From positions 1 through 40,039 of the forward strand of contig JADLED010000037.1 of the NCBI GenBank assembly GCA_020846335.1: a stretch of 40,039 nucleotides of DNA. The letters are read 5' to 3'. The first letter of the stretch is position 1. Every line of letters begins with the position of its first letter. The translations under genes were made by a program, and so were the position numbers. Below, piece after piece: positions 9,073 through 35,307 of this stretch. The notes below the pieces were generated by a model, which made no database searches, was not told the origin of the DNA, and saw only the letters and a list, made by a program, of their open reading frames with translations. This DNA is from Bacteroidia bacterium. GTDB lineage: Bacteria > Bacteroidota > Bacteroidia > B-17B0 > Aurantibacillaceae.

Positions 9073-12000
9073 ATGTCGTTGAAAAACAGGCGATTCTTTT
9101 TGTTATTGTTATTGGGGATCAATTTTGCCCTGATGAATTCGCAAACCCTTTACTGGGTGGGTGGTTCAGGCAATTTCAACGACGCAGCACACTGGAGCCT
9201 TGTTTCCGGTGGCACTCCGGCCAATCAAATTCCTTCATCCAATACCACTGTGAGTTTCGACGAAAATTCAGGTTCGGAGTATTACGAAGTGACTTTTACA
9301 AAAAACTGCAGTTTTAAAAACTTCAGAGCCGGTACCTACAACAATTTGGTGCGTTTTAAAAGCGAATCGTCGGCAACCGTCAATGTTAAAGGTTCGGTGT
9401 TTATGGCCGACAATGTTGTTTTTGAAAGCACGGCCCCAATGCTGTTTGCCGGAAACCCCGGCACTGCCAACACTTTGGAGTTTGGCAAAAACACGCTCAA
9501 ATGCGATTTAATTTTTAATAGTGGAGAATACAACCTAAAAAGCTTAAACCTTTCGACCAGCAATTCGCTGATTTTTAATGGCGGGGTGATTAACATGAAC
9601 CGGGCATTTATTACAGCCGGTAATTTTCTCAATCCAAATCCATCTGTAAAATTCAATGTAAAGGATTCCCATTTTAAAATTGAGAATAAGGTTGATATTA
9701 AATCCTACGAAAACTTTATAAGCAATAATCTAGAAATAACAGCGCAAACCACTTCCAAAACACAGTACCTTGTTCCAAGCTCATTTTCCTCTTCCAAAAA
9801 ATTATCCTCCAACAACATTAACAGCGGTTGCCCCATTGTGGTGTCGTTAACCCCTGCCTGTACCGGAACCTGTACGGGTATTATGGCCATTAGCTTTCCA
9901 ACCACCTGTATTGACCCACCTTACGATATTCAGATATTTAGTAACTGTAATATTTCGAGTAGCATTACCTCCAACTTTGCCGTAATAACGCTTACTGCGG
10001 TGCCACCGGGTAATACCTTTACTCTTGGCGGCATGTGTGCCTGTTCCACCAACCTGTTTTGTCAGATTCTGGATGGCGCTTCGCCACAAAATACCATAGT
10101 GCCCACAGTGGTTAGTCCACCCTCCTCGCCAATAAACTTTAATGGTAACCTTGTAATATTAAACACCACCACCACGGCACCAACCTGTAATTCGTCCTGC
10201 AATGGCTCCTTAACAGGCCAGTTTGTTTCGGGTGGTGTGTATTCCATTGCGGTTTCGCCTAGTACTGTTACGCCTTCGAGCTTTACAGTTAATGCCGCAC
10301 CTTTTGCAACTGCTTTTTCACTTACCGGTTTGTGTGGCAGCGCCTATACCTTCTCTATTGCCGACCAGTTTGGTTGTTCAACAGTAACTACAAAAACGCT
10401 CAATGCCCCGCCGCCACTGTTGGCAAATGCCACTAAAAAAGATTTAAACTGTAATGCCATTAACAACGGTGCGTTTTCGGTGTCTCCTACAGGCGGCACA
10501 GCTAACTATACGGTTAGTTTTAGCAGTGGGGCCACCTTATCCACCACAGCGGGTGGAACTGTGTCTGTGGGTTCATTGCCACCCGGTGCAGTATCAGCCA
10601 CTGTTACCGATTCTAAAGGATGTACGGCCATTGCAACTGCCACCATTACTCAGCCGGTAGCTTATACCATTACCCCCACGCAAACCAATGTTACCTGTCC
10701 GGGTTTTTCAACCGGAATTGCTGCTGTTAGTGTTGGCGGTGGTCAGGCACCCTATACTTTCACCTGGAGTCCCACGGGTGGCAATACCTCCACAGCCACT
10801 GGATTAGGAGCAGGTTCATACACCGTCAACATTTCCGATGCTTTGAGTTGTTTGGTGTCTTCGGTAATAACCATTACCCAACCAACGTCGATTACTCTTA
10901 CACCTTCTGTAACAAACCTGAGCTGTAACGGGGTTTGTAACGGTTCGGCCACTGTTTCGGCCACAGGACCAACCACTGCCATTTCCTTTACCTGGTTGGC
11001 AACCGGTGGTTTGGTTATTTCAACCACCAACACCATCAACAGCCGGTGCGCGGGCATTTACACCATTATTGCCAAAGATGCTCCTAGCACCCCAACCTGT
11101 GTGGTTACCCGAACAATAAATATTACACAGCCACCTTCATTTACAATTGCTGCCAGTACACAAAGTATTAGTTGTGCCACCAGTACCTGTTCGGGCAGTG
11201 CCACTTTAAATGTGAGTGGAAGCAATGGCACACCTTACACTTACACCTGGACACCGGGTGCTATAAGTACATCGGTGGCAACATCCTTATGTGCGGGCAC
11301 CTATACAGCTGCTGTTCGCGATGCTTCTGGATGCGTAACTTCCACAGTGGTCACCATTGCTCAACCGCCTACTTTTTCGGCAGGCATAACCACCGGCAGT
11401 GTAGCCTGTAGCGGTGCTTCTACGGGTAGCATTAATTCAACACCAACGGGTGGAACAGGTCCTTACACCTTTACACTCGTATCATTCGGCTCTACTTTAA
11501 CTTCTTCACCGCCTTATACCAACCTGCCTGCCGGAAACTATACCTTATTAATAAAAGACAGTTCACCGGCAACCTGCGCTCAGGCCTTTACAGCAAGTTT
11601 ACAACAGGCACCAACTTTGGTTCCTGCCATTAGTTCCACTTCGCTAACCTGTTTTAATGTGTGCAATGGTTCATTGGGTGGAAGCGCAGCAGGAGGAACA
11701 CCCACTTACACCTTTACCTGGGCCACACCTACCGGTACTGTGGCAGGAGGCGCTTTATCAGGACGTTGTGCCGGTGTTTACATCCTTACAGTAAGAGATG
11801 CCAATAATTGTACAGTAACAGCTACGCGAACACTCACACAACCAAGTGATGCCACCATCACCATTGTTACCACCAATGTGGCCTGTAATTCAGGAACCAC
11901 GGGCGTTTTGTCGGCCAATGTGGTGGGAGGAACCCCCGGATATACTTTATCATGGTCTAATGGTTTTACCGGAAATCCCAACAGCGGATTAGGCGCAGGT

Positions 12001-15000
12001 AACTATACGTTAACGGTTACGGATGCCAACAGTTGTATCAAAACCTCTACTGCTGTGATAACCCAACCTTTGCCAATATCGCTTACACGCACCACTACCG
12101 CCACTTCCTGTGCAGGTGGCTGCAATGGCTCGGCCACCGTTACTGCCACGGGAGGAAACGGACCTTACAATTTTAGTTTTAATTCTGTGCCTGTTGTGAA
12201 TAATACCTCCGGGATTATTTCAGGCTTATGTGCCGGAAATTATATTGCCAGTGTAACCGATGCCAGCTCCTGTGTTACCAGCACCGTGTTTGCCATTACT
12301 TCGCCGCCCTTACTTTCGGCAGCCATTACGGGTACTCAAAACAGTTGTACTGCATGTACCGGAGCCGCAACTGTTACTGGTTCAAATGGCACACCGGGAT
12401 ACACCTTTGTTTGGACCAATTCGCTGAGCGCCACCGTTAGTACCAATGCTGCTGCTTCTTCGCTTTGTGCCGGAAACTACACCGTGAGTGTTATTGATAG
12501 TAAAAGTTGTGTGGCCACCACAACGGTAAATATTCAGCAAACCGTTATTTCTGCCGCTGTTTTGGGTAGCACCGGCATTCAGTGTTTTGGTGCCTGCACC
12601 GGTTCGGCGGTTGCCAGCCCGAGTGGTGGAACTCCACCTTATAACTATACGTGGACACCTTCAGGTCAAACCACTCAAACCGCTACCGGACTTTGTGCAC
12701 AAGTTTACACTGTTACTATTAAGGAACAAGGCAGTTCGGGCTGTAGCAGTCAGGCTACTATTAACATTGCCACACCGCCGGCATTATCGGTTACCACTAC
12801 ACAGGCCAACCTTACCTGTTTTTCTGTTTGTACCGGCTCCATGTTTGCCAATGCCACAGGTGGTACTGGGGCTAAGAGTTATTCCTGGAGTCCCGGCGGA
12901 CAAACCACATCGAGCATAACCGGCCAATGTGCGGGTACCTACACCTTACGGGTTTCTGATGCGAATGGGTGTACCACCACACCAACCACCTTTAGCATTA
13001 CCCAACCAGCTTCTATTACAGCTAACTTTACTAACACCACACCTTCGGGCTGTACACTTTCCAATGGCAGTGTTTGCGTTGGGCCTACCGGAGGTGCGGG
13101 AGCGGGCTACACCTATACCTGGTCGCCCGTAACAGGTAGTGCCAGTTGTTTGACAGGTTTAGCCGCAGGCTTTTATTCGGTAACCATTGCCGATGGCTCG
13201 GGTTGTAGTGCGAGTTTTTCCACTTCATTAAATAGTCCGGCGGGGCCTACCATAACAGTGAGCCAACAATCGGTGGCCTGTTTTGGAACCAGTACCGGTG
13301 GCGCCACAGTTACTGCTTCCGGAACTCCTGCATTTAGTTATACCTGGTCGCCGGCAGTGGCAGGCAACACACCGGCAGCTAGCGGTTTACCGGCTGGTTC
13401 CTATGTGGTTACCGTAAGAGATGGCAACAGTTGTGTAACCAATCAATCCATTACCATTACTCAGGCAACTTCGCTCACCTTAAATCAAACGGTTACCAAT
13501 TCCCGTTGCTCGGGCGGAACCCAAACGGGGTCAATCACGCTTACACCAACTGGTGCGGCCACACCTTACATTTTTTCGTGGAGCGGACCCTCGTTTACTT
13601 CTACCAGTCAAAACATAACAGGTCTTGGTCCGGGTATTTACACATTATCGGTTATTGACGCGGTGCCATGTCCCGCCAAAATATTTACGTTTAACGTTAC
13701 TGCACCACCTGCAATAACCATTACTGCAAGCTCTACCAAAAGTGTGATTTGTGCCGGTATAAACAACGGTTCCATATCGGCAACGGCTTCGGGAGGAACA
13801 CCACCGTTATCGTTTACCTGGGCACCTTTATCTCCTTTTACAGGATCTACCACTTCCACAGTTCTTAATCTTGGTCCCGGTATTTACAGCGTGAGTGCGG
13901 TGGATGCCAACTCCTGTGTTTCCACCCCTGCCACCTGGACACTTGCGGCTTCTACACTCAGCACGGCCATTGTGCAGCAAAGTGCCACCTGTTCCAATTC
14001 CTGCAATGCCTCGGCTACTTTAAACGTTACAGGAGGTTCACCTACATATACATTTAGCTGGTCCTCAGGAGGTTCAACCACCAATTCGTCTTCGGGCTTG
14101 TGTGTAGGTAATTACACCGCCAGTGTTGTGGATGGCGATGGTTGTATTTCGCAAAAAGGATTTACGATTTCACCGGCTTCGTTATTTTCTATTACGGCTG
14201 CGCCTAGTCAGCCTTTGTGCAGTGGCTCGTGCAACGGAAGTGTGGCCATTACCCCAACCGGTGGAATTGGTGCTGTAAATTATGTGTGGTCGCCTACAGG
14301 TTCAGGGCAAAATCCAACCAATTTATGTGCGGGCAATTACACGGTAGTGGCAACGGATGGCAATTCATGTTCGGCCACCAGCGTGATTACTCTGACCAAT
14401 CCTCCGGCTATTTTGTCAAACGTTACGTTTACCAATCCATTGTGTAACAATAACTGCAATGGCATTGCCGTGGTTAATCCTACCAATGCCATTGGTGTGG
14501 TTACTGTTACCTGGCTGCCAACCGGCCCCAATTCAAAAACTATCACAGCGCTTTGTGCCGGCACATTCACATCTGTTATACAAGATGCCAATGGTTGTGT
14601 GGACACTCAAACGTTTACATTAACCAATCCACCGGCGCTGAACGTTAACACTTCTTTTGCTCCATCCACCTGCGGCGCGTCAAACGGTTCCATTACCTTA
14701 ATTCCAAGCGGAGGAACTCCGGGATACACCTATACGTGGTCGCCTAATGTGAGTAGCACGGTTTCTGCCACCGGTCTTTCGGCACAGATTTATACGGTTG
14801 TGGTGAAAGATAACGCGAATTGTTCCAATACGGTGACCATTCCTTTAAGTAACTCCAATGGACCAACGGCACCTGTTAGTTTCACCAATGTGTTGTGTTT
14901 TGGGCAAAGCAACGGTGCGGTGTCGGTAGGAGCCTTTAGTGGTGGCACGCCACCTTATTTGCCTGCCGTTTGGATAACACCTCCTCCGGCAAGTACTGTT

Positions 15001-18000
15001 AATACGTTAAGTAACATACCAGCAGGCAACTATACCGTTCAACTGGAAGACAATGCAGGTTGTATCACATTTACCGGAGCCACCGTAACCGGTCCGTCCT
15101 CGGTTTCGGTATTAGCAAATATGGGTTTGCCAACCTGTAATGGTATTTGCAATGGCTCTATCACCCTTAATGTTACCGGAGGCGTTCCGGGTTATTCTTA
15201 CAGTTGGACACCAGCATTACCGGCCACTTCGGTTCAAACAGGTTTATGTGCCGGCGATTATACTGTTTTAATTGGTCACAACAGTGGTTCCTGCACACAG
15301 ACTCAAACCTTTAATGTGCCGGGACAGGTGAATCTTACCTTTACAGATAATGTAGTACCCAATAATTGTTTTGGAAATTGCAACGGGGTGGCCAGTGTGT
15401 CGGTACTGCCAACGGCGGGCATTCCTTCTCCTTTTGTGTTTAGCTGGAGCAATGGCACAACCGGTCCGGGCCCACTCACCACTTCTGTTGGAGGATTGTG
15501 TAATGGCCTATATTCGGTTACTGCAACGGGTGCAAACGGATGTTTTAATACTTACACGGTTAACATTACGTCGCCCACTCAACTTACGGTAAGCAGTTCG
15601 GTGCTTCAGCCAAGTTGTAATTTGTGTAATGGCTCAGCCACGGTTACTCCGGGTGGTGGCTCGGGCAGCACATATACCATTAACTGGGCCAGTGGTGCTA
15701 CCACCAACACGCTTGGTAATTTGTGCGCAGGTATTTATCCAATTACTGTTACCGATAACAATGGTTGTTCGCAAACCAATACAGTTATTGTAGACAATTC
15801 GACTGGCATTAGCGGCCACACGGTTACCACACTTGATATTCCTTGTGGTGCCACTTGTACGGGTGCTGCCACCATTACCGCTACGGGCACCAACACGCCA
15901 ATTAGCTACAATTGGGTAACGCCGGCCTTAAATGGTTCGGTGCAAACCAATCTTTGTCCGGGTCCTTATTTTGTTCAATTGCAGGATGCTCAGGGTTGTA
16001 TCCGTAACGCCTCGTTAACCATTAATGCCGCTACCAATATTACCATTTCACCATTTGTGTTACCACCTAATTGTGGTTTTACCAACGGTACGGTGAATGT
16101 GGTGGTTTCGGGTGGAACGCCAACCTATAATTTCTCGTGGGTGCCTTTGGGCCCAAACAGCGGCACACTGAGTAATGTTGGTGCAGGCAGTTATACTTTA
16201 ACGGTTACCGATACCAGTCCGGGTGGATGCCCAACTTCGTCAGTTGTGAATGTGAGTAATAACACTGGACCTGTGGTAGCCATCTCTGCCACTAACATCA
16301 ATTGCTTTAATGCCTGCACCGGCGCTTTGTCGGCTAATGCAACCAGCACGGCCCTGCCACTTTCGTATAACTGGAGTGGAGGAGGCAGTACCCCGACTTT
16401 ATCCAATATGTGCAAAGGCGTAATTACCTTAACAGTTACGGATGCCAATGGTTGTTCAACTGTTAAGTCGGCCACATTAACTGATAATCCAAAAATTCAA
16501 ACCATTATTCCTGCTGTTATCCAACCAAGTTGTAATCTTTGCAATGGTCAGGCTGTTGTAACTGCTTTTGGCGGTATAGGACCTTACACTTATTCCTGGA
16601 CCAGCGGTGCAAGCACTAATTCGATTACGAACCTTTGTGCAGGATTGTATCAGTTGTTGATTACGGATTTATTAAACTGTCAGCAAACAGAAACTGTTAC
16701 CATTAATAATTCCAATGGCATTACGGGTCATAATTTTAGCGTACAGGATGTTACCTGCGGTGGTAACTGCGACGGAGCTGCCACAGTAACGCCTGTTGGT
16801 GGAAATCTGCCAATAAGCTTTAGCTGGATTAATCCGACCATACCTGTTACCGGTAACTCGGTAAACAACCTTTGCCCGGGAGTTTATTTTGTACAAATGC
16901 AGGATGCTCAGGGCTGTTTAAGAACGGCCTCCACCAATATTAATTCGGCCACCAATATTTCGTTAACGCCGTTTATTGTGCCTCCTGCCTGTGGATTTAC
17001 CAACGGGATTATTTCAGTTCAGGCTTCGGGTGGAACGCCAACACTTAGTTTTAACTGGTTGCCGGCCGGACCAAACAACGGCACTTTGACCAATATTGGT
17101 CCCGGTAGTTATACCCTTACAGTCAGCGATACCAGCCCTGGTGGATGCCCTACCACAACGGTAATGAACATCAGCAATCTTAACGCGCCAAACATTGCAC
17201 TTACGTCCACCAACATCAATTGTTTTAATGCTTGCACGGGTGCGGTTTCCGCCAATGTTACGGGCACTGCTTCGCCTTTTACCTACAACTGGAGTGGTGG
17301 TGGAAATACACCTAATATTGATAATCTCTGCAATGGGGTCATAACACTTACCGTAACCGACACCAACAGTTGTGTGGCGGTTAAATCTCAAACCATTACA
17401 CAAAACCCTCAGTTACAGGCAAGCGCCCCATTGATAACACAACCAACCTGCAACCAATGCAATGGTCAGGCGGTGGTAAATGCCATTGGTGGTGTGGCGC
17501 CATATACGTTTACGTGGACGTCGGGTGCAGTGGGTGCGTCGATTTCGAATTTGTGTGCGGGTTTATATCAGGTGCTGATTACTGATAATCTGAATTGCCA
17601 AAAAACTGAAAACATTGTTATCAATAATTCCAATGGCATTACCGGCGAAACCTTTACCGTGCAAAACGTGGCCTGTAGCGGCAATTGCAATGGTGGCGCC
17701 ACGGTAACACCGGTGGGAGGCGCTTCGCCTTATGGCTTTAACTGGATTAATCCGGCATTAAGCACCACCACCAGTGCTGCAAACAACCTTTGTGTGGGCA
17801 CGTATTTTGTAAAAATGACCGATGCGAATGGTTGTATCCGCACATCTTCCACCAATATTTCGGCGGCCAGCAACATGAGCATAGTTTCTAACATTGTTCA
17901 ACCGGGTTGCGGTTTAAGTAATGGCATTATTAGTTTAAATGTGAGCGGCGGAACTACCCCTTACACCTATAGCTGGAGTCCGGTTGCGGGCAGCAGTGCT

Positions 18001-19542
18001 TCTTTAACCGGTTTGGCACCGGGCAATTACACGGTGTTAGTAATAGACCAAAATGGTGCCGGTTGCTCGCAGCTAATGAATTTTAACCTGAACAACCTTA
18101 GCGGCCCTACCATTAACTACACACAAACCAATGTGAGCTGTTTTGGATTGTGTGATGGCTCAGTGGCCGTAGTTACCACCGGAACAGCCGCCACCACCTT
18201 TACCTGGAGCACGGGCAGCTCGTCAGCAAACAGCGGCAGCAATTGCGCCGGAGTTATTTCGCTTACGGCAAGTGCCAATGGTTGCAACAGTGTTAAAACA
18301 TTTACCATTGAGCAAAAGCCTAAACTGGAACTGGACTATGGATTGAAAAAAATCAGTTGCGGCACTACCTACGACGGGCAAATTACACTGTTGCCAATTG
18401 GTGGCGAACTGGCCTACACCTTTAGTGGAACCTCTGGTTTAAACAGCAATACTTCGTCTTCGTTGTGTGTGGGTGATTACACATTAACGGTTACGGACGT
18501 GAATGGCTGTGTGGCCGATACGGTGATTAAGCTCATTAAGCCGGTGCCAATTAGTCCGACCATTACATCGCTTAACTCGTCCTGCTCTTCGGTAGCAGAT
18601 GGTTCGGCTGCTGTGGTGGCAAGTGGCGGCACACCAAAATACACCTATTTGTGGACAGGACCTTCTTCATTTACTGCAGTGGTAGCAAGTATCAATAACA
18701 TCTTTTCGGGCGATTACACCCTGAGTGTTACCGACAGTTTGGGTTGTCGGAGAGATTCGGTATTAAAAATTATTACCACAGTTACCATTGAGGCTAATGC
18801 AGGTCAGGATACTTTGGTTTGTCCGGGAAGTTCGGTGAAAGTTACCGGTATTAATTCAAACGGAGTGGTTAACTATAGTTGGTACCTGTTGCCAAATAAC
18901 ACAGCCACAGTGGCCAATACGGCGAGCTTTAGCATTCCGGGTGCAACGAATAGTTATACCTACGAGTTGGTTACCACTTCATCTAATCCTGGATGTTTAG
19001 ACAGGGATACGGTGGTAATTAAAGCCTTTTCTACGCCTTACATTGAGGCCGGAGCCTCCTTTACCATTCCTATTTTTGCAACAGTAACTATAGGTGGCAA
19101 TCCAACCACAGAGGGCATTGGATCAGTAACGTGGTCGCCGGCCGGAACCATAAATGACAGTAACCTTGAAAATCCGGTGGCATCAAACACGGTTTCAACG
19201 ACCTATACGGTTGCACTTTCGTATGGTAATGGCTGTTTGGTGAGCGATACCATGCAGGTATTCCTTTATCCGGCCATTATCATCAATAACGGTTTTAGCC
19301 CCAATAACGATGGTAAAAATGATGTGTGGTTAATTGATAATCTGGAGCAGTTTCCTGACAATACGGTAGAGATATATAACCGCTGGGGCGATTTGTTGTT
19401 TTCGTCTGTTGGCTATCAGGTGCCATTTAATGGTAAATACAAAGGCAACGATTTGCCGGTTGGCACCTATTATTATGTTATTCACTTAAATCACCCGGCT
19501 TATCCTAAACCATACACCGGACCTTTAACCATATTCAGATGA
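9073..19542 (+). CDS. Giant SprB-repeat surface protein with gliding-motility-associated (T9SS type B) C-terminus
   Basis: Predicted cell-surface adhesin of 3489 residues. A signal peptide (about residues 1-24, ending MNSQ) is followed by an N-terminal domain starting LYWVGGSGNFNDAAHWS, a motif seen in Bacteroidota surface proteins. Residues about 361-3225 hold 37 SprB-type repeats of about 77 residues, each running C-x-G, GGTPxYTYTW, then AGxYTVTVTDANGC. One Ig-like unit follows (TIEANAGQDTLVCPG). The last 92 residues (NNGFSPNNDGKNDVW to the end) form the gliding-motility-associated C-terminal (CHU_C, type B) sorting domain. The stop codon overlaps the start of porP/sprF, a known arrangement for SprB-like adhesins and their SprF-like partner. 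It may act in gliding or attachment; that is inference, because type B cargo also occurs in non-gliding species. No frame interruption is seen across 10.5 kb. Confidence 0.93.
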   Translation: MSLKNRRFFLLLLLGINFALMNSQTLYWVGGSGNFNDAAHWSLVSGGTPANQIPSSNTTVSFDENSGSEYYEVTFTKNCSFKNFRAGTYNNLVRFKSESSATVNVKGSVFMADNVVFESTAPMLFAGNPGTANTLEFGKNTLKCDLIFNSGEYNLKSLNLSTSNSLIFNGGVINMNRAFITAGNFLNPNPSVKFNVKDSHFKIENKVDIKSYENFISNNLEITAQTTSKTQYLVPSSFSSSKKLSSNNINSGCPIVVSLTPACTGTCTGIMAISFPTTCIDPPYDIQIFSNCNISSSITSNFAVITLTAVPPGNTFTLGGMCACSTNLFCQILDGASPQNTIVPTVVSPPSSPINFNGNLVILNTTTTAPTCNSSCNGSLTGQFVSGGVYSIAVSPSTVTPSSFTVNAAPFATAFSLTGLCGSAYTFSIADQFGCSTVTTKTLNAPPPLLANATKKDLNCNAINNGAFSVSPTGGTANYTVSFSSGATLSTTAGGTVSVGSLPPGAVSATVTDSKGCTAIATATITQPVAYTITPTQTNVTCPGFSTGIAAVSVGGGQAPYTFTWSPTGGNTSTATGLGAGSYTVNISDALSCLVSSVITITQPTSITLTPSVTNLSCNGVCNGSATVSATGPTTAISFTWLATGGLVISTTNTINSRCAGIYTIIAKDAPSTPTCVVTRTINITQPPSFTIAASTQSISCATSTCSGSATLNVSGSNGTPYTYTWTPGAISTSVATSLCAGTYTAAVRDASGCVTSTVVTIAQPPTFSAGITTGSVACSGASTGSINSTPTGGTGPYTFTLVSFGSTLTSSPPYTNLPAGNYTLLIKDSSPATCAQAFTASLQQAPTLVPAISSTSLTCFNVCNGSLGGSAAGGTPTYTFTWATPTGTVAGGALSGRCAGVYILTVRDANNCTVTATRTLTQPSDATITIVTTNVACNSGTTGVLSANVVGGTPGYTLSWSNGFTGNPNSGLGAGNYTLTVTDANSCIKTSTAVITQPLPISLTRTTTATSCAGGCNGSATVTATGGNGPYNFSFNSVPVVNNTSGIISGLCAGNYIASVTDASSCVTSTVFAITSPPLLSAAITGTQNSCTACTGAATVTGSNGTPGYTFVWTNSLSATVSTNAAASSLCAGNYTVSVIDSKSCVATTTVNIQQTVISAAVLGSTGIQCFGACTGSAVASPSGGTPPYNYTWTPSGQTTQTATGLCAQVYTVTIKEQGSSGCSSQATINIATPPALSVTTTQANLTCFSVCTGSMFANATGGTGAKSYSWSPGGQTTSSITGQCAGTYTLRVSDANGCTTTPTTFSITQPASITANFTNTTPSGCTLSNGSVCVGPTGGAGAGYTYTWSPVTGSASCLTGLAAGFYSVTIADGSGCSASFSTSLNSPAGPTITVSQQSVACFGTSTGGATVTASGTPAFSYTWSPAVAGNTPAASGLPAGSYVVTVRDGNSCVTNQSITITQATSLTLNQTVTNSRCSGGTQTGSITLTPTGAATPYIFSWSGPSFTSTSQNITGLGPGIYTLSVIDAVPCPAKIFTFNVTAPPAITITASSTKSVICAGINNGSISATASGGTPPLSFTWAPLSPFTGSTTSTVLNLGPGIYSVSAVDANSCVSTPATWTLAASTLSTAIVQQSATCSNSCNASATLNVTGGSPTYTFSWSSGGSTTNSSSGLCVGNYTASVVDGDGCISQKGFTISPASLFSITAAPSQPLCSGSCNGSVAITPTGGIGAVNYVWSPTGSGQNPTNLCAGNYTVVATDGNSCSATSVITLTNPPAILSNVTFTNPLCNNNCNGIAVVNPTNAIGVVTVTWLPTGPNSKTITALCAGTFTSVIQDANGCVDTQTFTLTNPPALNVNTSFAPSTCGASNGSITLIPSGGTPGYTYTWSPNVSSTVSATGLSAQIYTVVVKDNANCSNTVTIPLSNSNGPTAPVSFTNVLCFGQSNGAVSVGAFSGGTPPYLPAVWITPPPASTVNTLSNIPAGNYTVQLEDNAGCITFTGATVTGPSSVSVLANMGLPTCNGICNGSITLNVTGGVPGYSYSWTPALPATSVQTGLCAGDYTVLIGHNSGSCTQTQTFNVPGQVNLTFTDNVVPNNCFGNCNGVASVSVLPTAGIPSPFVFSWSNGTTGPGPLTTSVGGLCNGLYSVTATGANGCFNTYTVNITSPTQLTVSSSVLQPSCNLCNGSATVTPGGGSGSTYTINWASGATTNTLGNLCAGIYPITVTDNNGCSQTNTVIVDNSTGISGHTVTTLDIPCGATCTGAATITATGTNTPISYNWVTPALNGSVQTNLCPGPYFVQLQDAQGCIRNASLTINAATNITISPFVLPPNCGFTNGTVNVVVSGGTPTYNFSWVPLGPNSGTLSNVGAGSYTLTVTDTSPGGCPTSSVVNVSNNTGPVVAISATNINCFNACTGALSANATSTALPLSYNWSGGGSTPTLSNMCKGVITLTVTDANGCSTVKSATLTDNPKIQTIIPAVIQPSCNLCNGQAVVTAFGGIGPYTYSWTSGASTNSITNLCAGLYQLLITDLLNCQQTETVTINNSNGITGHNFSVQDVTCGGNCDGAATVTPVGGNLPISFSWINPTIPVTGNSVNNLCPGVYFVQMQDAQGCLRTASTNINSATNISLTPFIVPPACGFTNGIISVQASGGTPTLSFNWLPAGPNNGTLTNIGPGSYTLTVSDTSPGGCPTTTVMNISNLNAPNIALTSTNINCFNACTGAVSANVTGTASPFTYNWSGGGNTPNIDNLCNGVITLTVTDTNSCVAVKSQTITQNPQLQASAPLITQPTCNQCNGQAVVNAIGGVAPYTFTWTSGAVGASISNLCAGLYQVLITDNLNCQKTENIVINNSNGITGETFTVQNVACSGNCNGGATVTPVGGASPYGFNWINPALSTTTSAANNLCVGTYFVKMTDANGCIRTSSTNISAASNMSIVSNIVQPGCGLSNGIISLNVSGGTTPYTYSWSPVAGSSASLTGLAPGNYTVLVIDQNGAGCSQLMNFNLNNLSGPTINYTQTNVSCFGLCDGSVAVVTTGTAATTFTWSTGSSSANSGSNCAGVISLTASANGCNSVKTFTIEQKPKLELDYGLKKISCGTTYDGQITLLPIGGELAYTFSGTSGLNSNTSSSLCVGDYTLTVTDVNGCVADTVIKLIKPVPISPTITSLNSSCSSVADGSAAVVASGGTPKYTYLWTGPSSFTAVVASINNIFSGDYTLSVTDSLGCRRDSVLKIITTVTIEANAGQDTLVCPGSSVKVTGINSNGVVNYSWYLLPNNTATVANTASFSIPGATNSYTYELVTTSSNPGCLDRDTVVIKAFSTPYIEAGASFTIPIFATVTIGGNPTTEGIGSVTWSPAGTINDSNLENPVASNTVSTTYTVALSYGNGCLVSDTMQVFLYPAIIINNGFSPNNDGKNDVWLIDNLEQFPDNTVEIYNRWGDLLFSSVGYQVPFNGKYKGNDLPVGTYYYVIHLNHPAYPKPYTGPLTIFR
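10155..18750 (+). repeat. Array of 37 SprB-type repeats
   Basis: In-frame array with an average period near 232 bp, inside the 3489-residue gene. I counted 37 units by following the leading Cys and the closing D-x-x-x-C of each. All 37 keep both of these cysteines. Twenty-two have two further cysteines (C-x-x-C-N-G or C-x-x-x-C-N-G near the start, and L-C-A-G before the last strand), 14 have neither, and one (unit 36) has only the second. DNA identity between most neighbouring units is moderate, so the array is old except in its last third. Confidence 0.88.
15805..18315 (+). repeat. Higher-order tandem repeat of four SprB units (about 915 bp)
   Basis: A block of four SprB units recurs. The codon for the Gly opening GISGH, GITGH and GITGE lies at 15805, 16717 and 17635, giving periods of 912 and 918 bp (304 and 306 residues). 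Within each block the units keep their identities: a VQDVxCG unit, a PPxCGFTNG unit, a NINCFNACTGA unit, then a QPxCNxCNGQ unit. The third block is partial (about three units) and more diverged. This shows segmental amplification of a four-unit cassette. Confidence 0.8.
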
Positions 19543-34913: not shown

Positions 34914-35056
34914 CCCTTATTTATTTTACTAAAAAAATGGGTAATTTGATTTTTTTCATTCGTTTTTTTTATCCATGCATAATCCGGGTTTAACCGTAAA
35001 TAGACAGTTGGGTTTAGCAACGAAAACTAAAAGCCCCAAGGGATTTGCTTAGCGCA

Positions 35057-35074
35057 TCCCGCGAATTGGCGGGA
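35057..35074. other. GC-rich hairpin inside the MITE-like element
   Basis: TCCCGC (35057-35062) pairs with GCGGGA (35069-35074) around GAATTG. It is one of at least four local hairpins in the element. A weaker one is TGTGC (35179-35183) with GCACA (35192-35196). Confidence 0.65.
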
Positions 35075-35090
35075 GAGGACTGTAAGAGGG

Positions 35091-35111
35091 CATATGTGCA
35101 ATGCACATATG
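35091..35111. repeat. 21-bp near-perfect palindrome A inside the element
   Basis: CATATGTGCA, one central A, then its exact complement TGCACATATG. It is preceded by AGGG, as is palindrome B 59 bp to the right. Both share the core ATGCA/TGCAT-like geometry with 10-bp arms and a 1-nt centre but differ in outer arm bases. Confidence 0.85.
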
Positions 35112-35149
35112 GGTCAGCTTGAGCGAGGACACTATTTTGAAGCCCAGGG

Positions 35150-35170
35150 TAAATATGCAGTGCATATTTA
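35150..35170. repeat. 21-bp near-perfect palindrome B inside the element
   Basis: TAAATATGCA, one central G, then its exact complement TGCATATTTA. Same arm length and centre size as palindrome A at 35091-35111, with different arm sequence, so the pairing and not the sequence appears conserved. Confidence 0.85.
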
Positions 35171-35307
35171 AGCCAGACTGTGCCTGGGGGAGCACAAGCA
35201 AAGACCGCTGGGGATTTTACGTTTGCAGTCGAAAGTCAACTGTCTATTTACGGTTTAAGTGTTCCAAATTTCTTTAACTTTATTTTTTATTACTTTTAAG
35301 TTAATCC

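Follow-up and report, generated by a model that had tools for sequence, protein, structure and literature searches.

On the evidence of its sequence, the 260-bp element at positions 34994-35253 of the window (the whole 40,039-nucleotide stretch of DNA analysed here) is a MITE, that is, a short, non-coding element with terminal inverted repeats (TIRs) and a target-site duplication. The explanation favoured here, to which a probability of about 0.8 is given, is that this MITE is mobilised by an IS1380-family transposase and that its folded body is under selection. The mechanism would be an ordinary one, whereas the conservation of the body and the change of the ends on related bodies appear unusual. 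MITEs are usually regarded as decayed transposons with an unconstrained interior. Here, numerous compensatory changes preserve the fold even as the TIRs vary, which points to the cargo, and not the ends, as what defines this family, and whether MITEs carry selected RNAs becomes testable.

The TIRs are perfect over 17 bp, with CCGTAAATAGACAGTTG (type I) at 34994-35010 on the + strand and its reverse complement at 35237-35253 on the - strand. They are flanked by two copies of TTTAA, at 34989-34993 and 35254-35258, which are assigned as the target-site duplication from the sequence and from statistics over 27 elements. If the arms are extended to 34989-35038 and 35209-35258 they are 76% complementary. 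The predicted DNA folding energy is -62.9 kcal/mol, compared with -31.7 +/- 3.7 for dinucleotide shuffles (z -8.5), and the corresponding values for RNA are -106.3 and -76.5 +/- 5.0 (z -6.0); in both cases 0 of 200 shuffles were as good. A preliminary description of this DNA had given the coordinates, the 17-bp TIRs, the TTTAA flanks and the end-to-end fold correctly almost to the base. The second pair of arms that it placed at 35029-35050 and 35196-35218 proved to be part of a body helix that is kept in relatives, and the smaller hairpins that it saw in the loop are indeed present, being refined here to two homologous modules that the other two host copies lack. The structured body (35012-35236, + strand, compound form) scores 70.2 bits against a covariance model, R1, over the full model length. 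Its left arm holds a palindrome, TCCCGCGAATTGGCGGGA, at 35057-35074 (+ strand), which alignments place in 3/3 host copies and which most relatives lack. In genome G028, three elements (L144, L081 and L143) have a palindrome like TTCCGAAGGAATCCCTTCGGGA inserted in the right arm beside TAAT, unlike the left-arm position of the host palindrome. None of the Rfam 15 covariance models matched the window element at E<=1, and none matched inside the elements of relatives. No paper found describes the window element either.

In the host genome the TIR is present solely as three complete pairs, and a reversed control pattern gave 0 matches. The two further full copies have the same TIRs, are 97% identical to each other and are ~70 bp shorter than the window copy. 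Exact TIR matches outside the host fall mostly in G010, a genome of the same genus, in which model R1 has 28 matches; it has 10 in G033, 6 in G028, 4 in G087 and a single location in each of G006, G012, G013 and G019 (one of the two G012 rows is the same location on the opposite strand). Exact 18-mer TIR matches in other phyla were set aside, as there was no second TIR nearby and their number was close to chance. Searches of plasmid and phage collections gave no match to the element and an IMG/VR scan with the TIR pattern gave zero matches. Four IMG/VR contigs matched a core pattern, but were rejected because they hold a near-identical sequence without the fold, in which model R1 finds nothing.

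The flanks and one empty site point to transposition. In 18 of the 27 elements that have both TIRs the two 5-bp flanks are identical (in almost every case TTTAA or TTAAA), and 9 are without exact 5-bp flanks; when flanks were re-paired, a mean of 8.5 identical pairs was expected and the maximum in 2000 trials was 16. The host copy on contig C38 lies between a secreted-protein gene on its left and, on its right, a neighbour gene that almost all of the 40 genomes of the genus retain. In G038 the orthologous pair of genes (left protein 60% identical over 499 aa) has a single TTAAA and no element, and so represents the empty site of this copy, which is another copy than the window one. The preliminary suggestion of a transposon derivative moved in trans, for which multiple copies and empty sites in relatives had been named as support, is strengthened by the three host copies, the 28 model matches in G010, the 5-bp duplications, the empty site and the existence of IS1380 elements with the same TIRs. 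Three MITEs in G087 (L066, L074 and L146) share a common flank, ACGAGCGCTTCGTGGGATTTT, and so seem to sit in a larger repeat.

An IS1380-family transposon of another genus has matching TIRs, which makes mobilisation in trans by an IS1380 transposase likely. This transposon, L017 (genome G083, same family), is an element of ~1.44 kb bounded by type I TIRs that differ from each other by one base. The 438-aa protein that it encodes scores 256 bits against the NCBIfam IS1380 model (cut-off 180) and 162 bits against Pfam DDE_Tnp_1_4; the contig stops at the right TIR, where a duplication is unreadable. IS elements with type I TIRs are represented by L017 and L192, and those with type II TIRs (ACCCARATTATGCATTAG) by L087 and L193. 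IS1380 transposons bearing type II TIRs occur in G023 and G010, and the IS1380 genes of these two genomes were dropped as candidate partners for this reason. L194 in G087 is a chimera, in which a shortened IS1380 transposase gene lies between a type I TIR and a type II TIR. A search of the host genome (G000; assembly 94% complete, in 352 contigs) for an IS1380 transposase found none. Such MITEs usually, though not necessarily, share their genome with the partner. Multi-copy ISs are often missing from assemblies, and the partner transposase may have been lost from the host genome.

In the proposed mechanism, an IS1380-family DDE transposase encoded elsewhere would recognise the ~19-bp TIRs and insert the element into targets of the TTTAA/TTAAA type, duplicating 5 bp; that the enzyme acts in trans is a step we infer. 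The body of the element is a ~140-nt imperfect hairpin and not a deleted transposase gene. No similarity to the IS1380 ISs is visible beyond the TIR: the ~19-bp TIRs of L017 are identical or nearly so to those of the element, whereas the ISs carry a transposase and the element has none. The IS1380 family, which has a DDE enzyme, serves as the prokaryotic outgroup of piggyBac, and the TTTAA/TTAAA target is reminiscent of the TTAA target of the latter (PMC10813416). A literature search, mostly outside subscription papers, found no IS1380-linked MITE of Bacteroidota; with this element the piggyBac-related IS1380 family would gain a MITE partner in this bacterial class.

Next, the bodies were compared. 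An alignment of 14 bodies without their TIRs, from the host, G010, G006, G012, G013, G028, G033 and G087, has one common long hairpin of 49 pairs, of which 27 are changed on both sides. The number of double-changed cells is 107, compared with 31.6 +/- 4.6 when shuffled and <=23 for slid structures, and 94.4% of cells are paired, compared with <=47.5% when the partners are slid. These compensatory changes support one fold, in line with the covariation foreseen for a structured element. In the outer arms conservation is higher in unpaired columns (0.85) than in paired ones (0.74), as would be expected if conserved internal loops, GTAGTGA/GTAATAG and GACTGTAAG/TTTTGAAG, were set within freely changing stems. 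Model R1 of the body finds the family in 9/87 genomes of the order and in 0/394 other genomes drawn from the phylum, while a draw from the class added three further families, represented by G775 (E 4e-19), G502 (5e-10) and G766 (2e-7) with one or two copies each. Together, these comparisons trace one long hairpin in the ~140-nt body through at least two genera and, with weaker evidence, through three other families.

The strand on which the body folds bears on the nature of the folded molecule. As RNA, the + strand gives the better fold in 50/55 copies, and RNAalifold gives -43.3 on the + strand and -22.7 on the complement. Moreover, among 8 subfamily representatives the facing pairs include 17 G-U but 4 A-C, an excess that favours selection on one folded strand, probably RNA. 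The + strand has more G than C, however, and shuffled sequence also shows a strand difference. The z-scores of the two strands differ less, and the window and G019 copies point in the opposite direction, so that the argument falls away for the window copy. Part of the strand advantage therefore comes from the G excess, and the strand argument is a moderate one. Taken together, the strand asymmetry and the G-U excess give moderate support to RNA as the folded molecule.

The same data bear on two other accounts of the fold. If the element were an ordinary IS1380-driven MITE, template switching between the arms of the quasi-palindrome during replication could transfer changes from one arm into the other and mimic covariation; all long hairpins are liable to this kind of correction, and here the terminal and the inner arms are both near-palindromic. 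Template switching would erase mismatched internal loops, however, whereas the two loop pairs are conserved, and it would leave no G-U pairs, whereas G-U outnumbers A-C, so that this account is considered unlikely. The fold might instead act as DNA, as a single strand or an extruded cruciform that the transposase or some host factor recognises in transposition or replication. The body does fold strongly as DNA too, and it travels together with the TIRs, but IS1380 elements bear these TIRs without the body and the strand asymmetry speaks against a cruciform; a role of this kind is judged to have a rather low probability. A long imperfect hairpin with strand asymmetry is also a property of integron attC sites. 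This identification was rejected and has a negligible probability, since the paired RYYYAAC ... GTTRRRY core sites are absent from the ends, and target duplications and IS1380 TIRs are present instead. The reading preferred to all of these is that the folded body is probably under selection, and the balance tips slightly towards its acting as a transcribed RNA, read from the + strand.

How such a body might act was considered from its surroundings. The orientations of the genes around the copies (12 ++, 10 +-, 9 --, 6 -+) are near-random and do not support a fixed cis-regulatory role; a terminator at gene 3' ends is likewise unsupported by these counts. A simple Bacteroidota promoter pattern is absent from the element, except in two compound copies of G033. 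Thus, of the earlier proposal of a structured RNA or regulatory cassette, the RNA part gains partial support from covariation and from the predominance of G-U over A-C, and the cis-regulatory part finds no support in the unbiased orientation. If the element served the host in cis, as a terminator, mRNA stabiliser or processing site that is spread by transposition and kept where useful, this would explain why several copies lie just downstream of a stop codon, and such roles are known for the MITE transcripts of Correia/NEMIS and for ERIC (PMC2229807, PMC10969869). Orientation bias is absent, however, and insertions that are tolerated in AT-rich TTTAA sites would be expected close to gene ends in any case, which makes this explanation improbable. 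Under the preferred reading of an IS1380-mobilised MITE with a selected body, the folded body would help the element or soften its effect on host transcripts.

Several known repeats resemble the element in part. Correia/NEMIS of Neisseria is likewise a short hairpin MITE whose long and short forms differ by an internal segment, and RNase III processes its transcript (PMC2229807, PMC10969869); it differs in TIRs and hosts. The BOX and RUP repeats of Streptococcus pneumoniae also fold end to end, the interior of BOX is modular, and RUP is believed to move in trans by means of an IS whose TIRs match its own, as presumed here (PMC3049150, PMC2229807), although RUP is linked to IS630 and not to IS1380. 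The paper on BOX, RUP and SPRITE is silent on covariation or compensatory changes. CIR elements of alphaproteobacteria form a family of repeats whose proposed RNA structure has properties that are conserved across the phylogeny (PMC2229807), but they fold into two arms and a linker in which GANTC is exposed, whereas the element is a single long hairpin. ERIC, a 127-bp hairpin repeat co-transcribed with its neighbours, is similarly common to several genera, with other hosts and ends (PMC2229807). No MITE with a covariation-supported fold was found in the literature search, which lay mostly outside subscription papers.

TIRs of types I, II and III occur within one family on related bodies. Type III, AACCCGAAGTAGTTTGTAGG, is found with a related body in G087. 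With type II TIRs, in G033, G087 and G019, the body centre differs and the subterminal loop TCGTAGTGAGAG ... CTCGTAATAGAA is retained. G775, of another family, has a related body with the TIR ACCCGAATTATTCATGG, and further TIRs are found on bodies in other families. One way in which ends can be exchanged is indicated by L146 of G087, a chimera in which a type III left end is joined to a body and right end of type II.

The window copy is a compound form, in which two hairpin modules of 42-44 nt on the + strand replace short segments of the simple form. HP1 (35088-35129; 9-bp stem, 3-nt loop) takes the place of ~7 nt on the 5' strand of the apical helix, and its homologue HP2 (35146-35189) that of ~8 nt. 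The same replacement at the same two sites is seen in two G033 copies whose bodies are otherwise like the simple copies of G033; in other copies of this genome only the first site is occupied by a module, and in G775 a module stands at the HP2 site. Modules thus occupy the same two sites in MITE bodies of three lineages. Their stems of 9 bp, with 3-nt loops, have a different sequence every time, and their borders are GGG and AGCC, the latter being degenerate rather than intact in window HP1. The form GGG-[9-bp stem of free sequence, 3-nt loop]-AGCC(G/A)G was recorded in the window and in L082, L100, L217, L099 and L156. HP1 and HP2 were not found as a dispersed repeat in the host genome. G005, in which there is no body match, has separate hairpins of a similar kind, and in these 8-9 of the 9 stem positions are paired. 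The module pattern also matches 15 viral contigs, none with a palindromic stem, and these were discarded as chance matches. It is conceivable, though somewhat doubtful, that the element belongs to a transposon-borne functional RNA family that is present in several families of one class, wears whichever IS1380 TIRs are at hand and takes up interchangeable hairpin modules at fixed sites.

Two minor observations were made. In G033 a sub-threshold match to the Rfam Flavo-1 RNA (L100, 1196-1337, - strand; 31.2 bits, gathering threshold 42) lies ~80 bp from a compound MITE. Elsewhere in the window, positions 9073-19542 of the + strand hold an open reading frame of 3489 codons.
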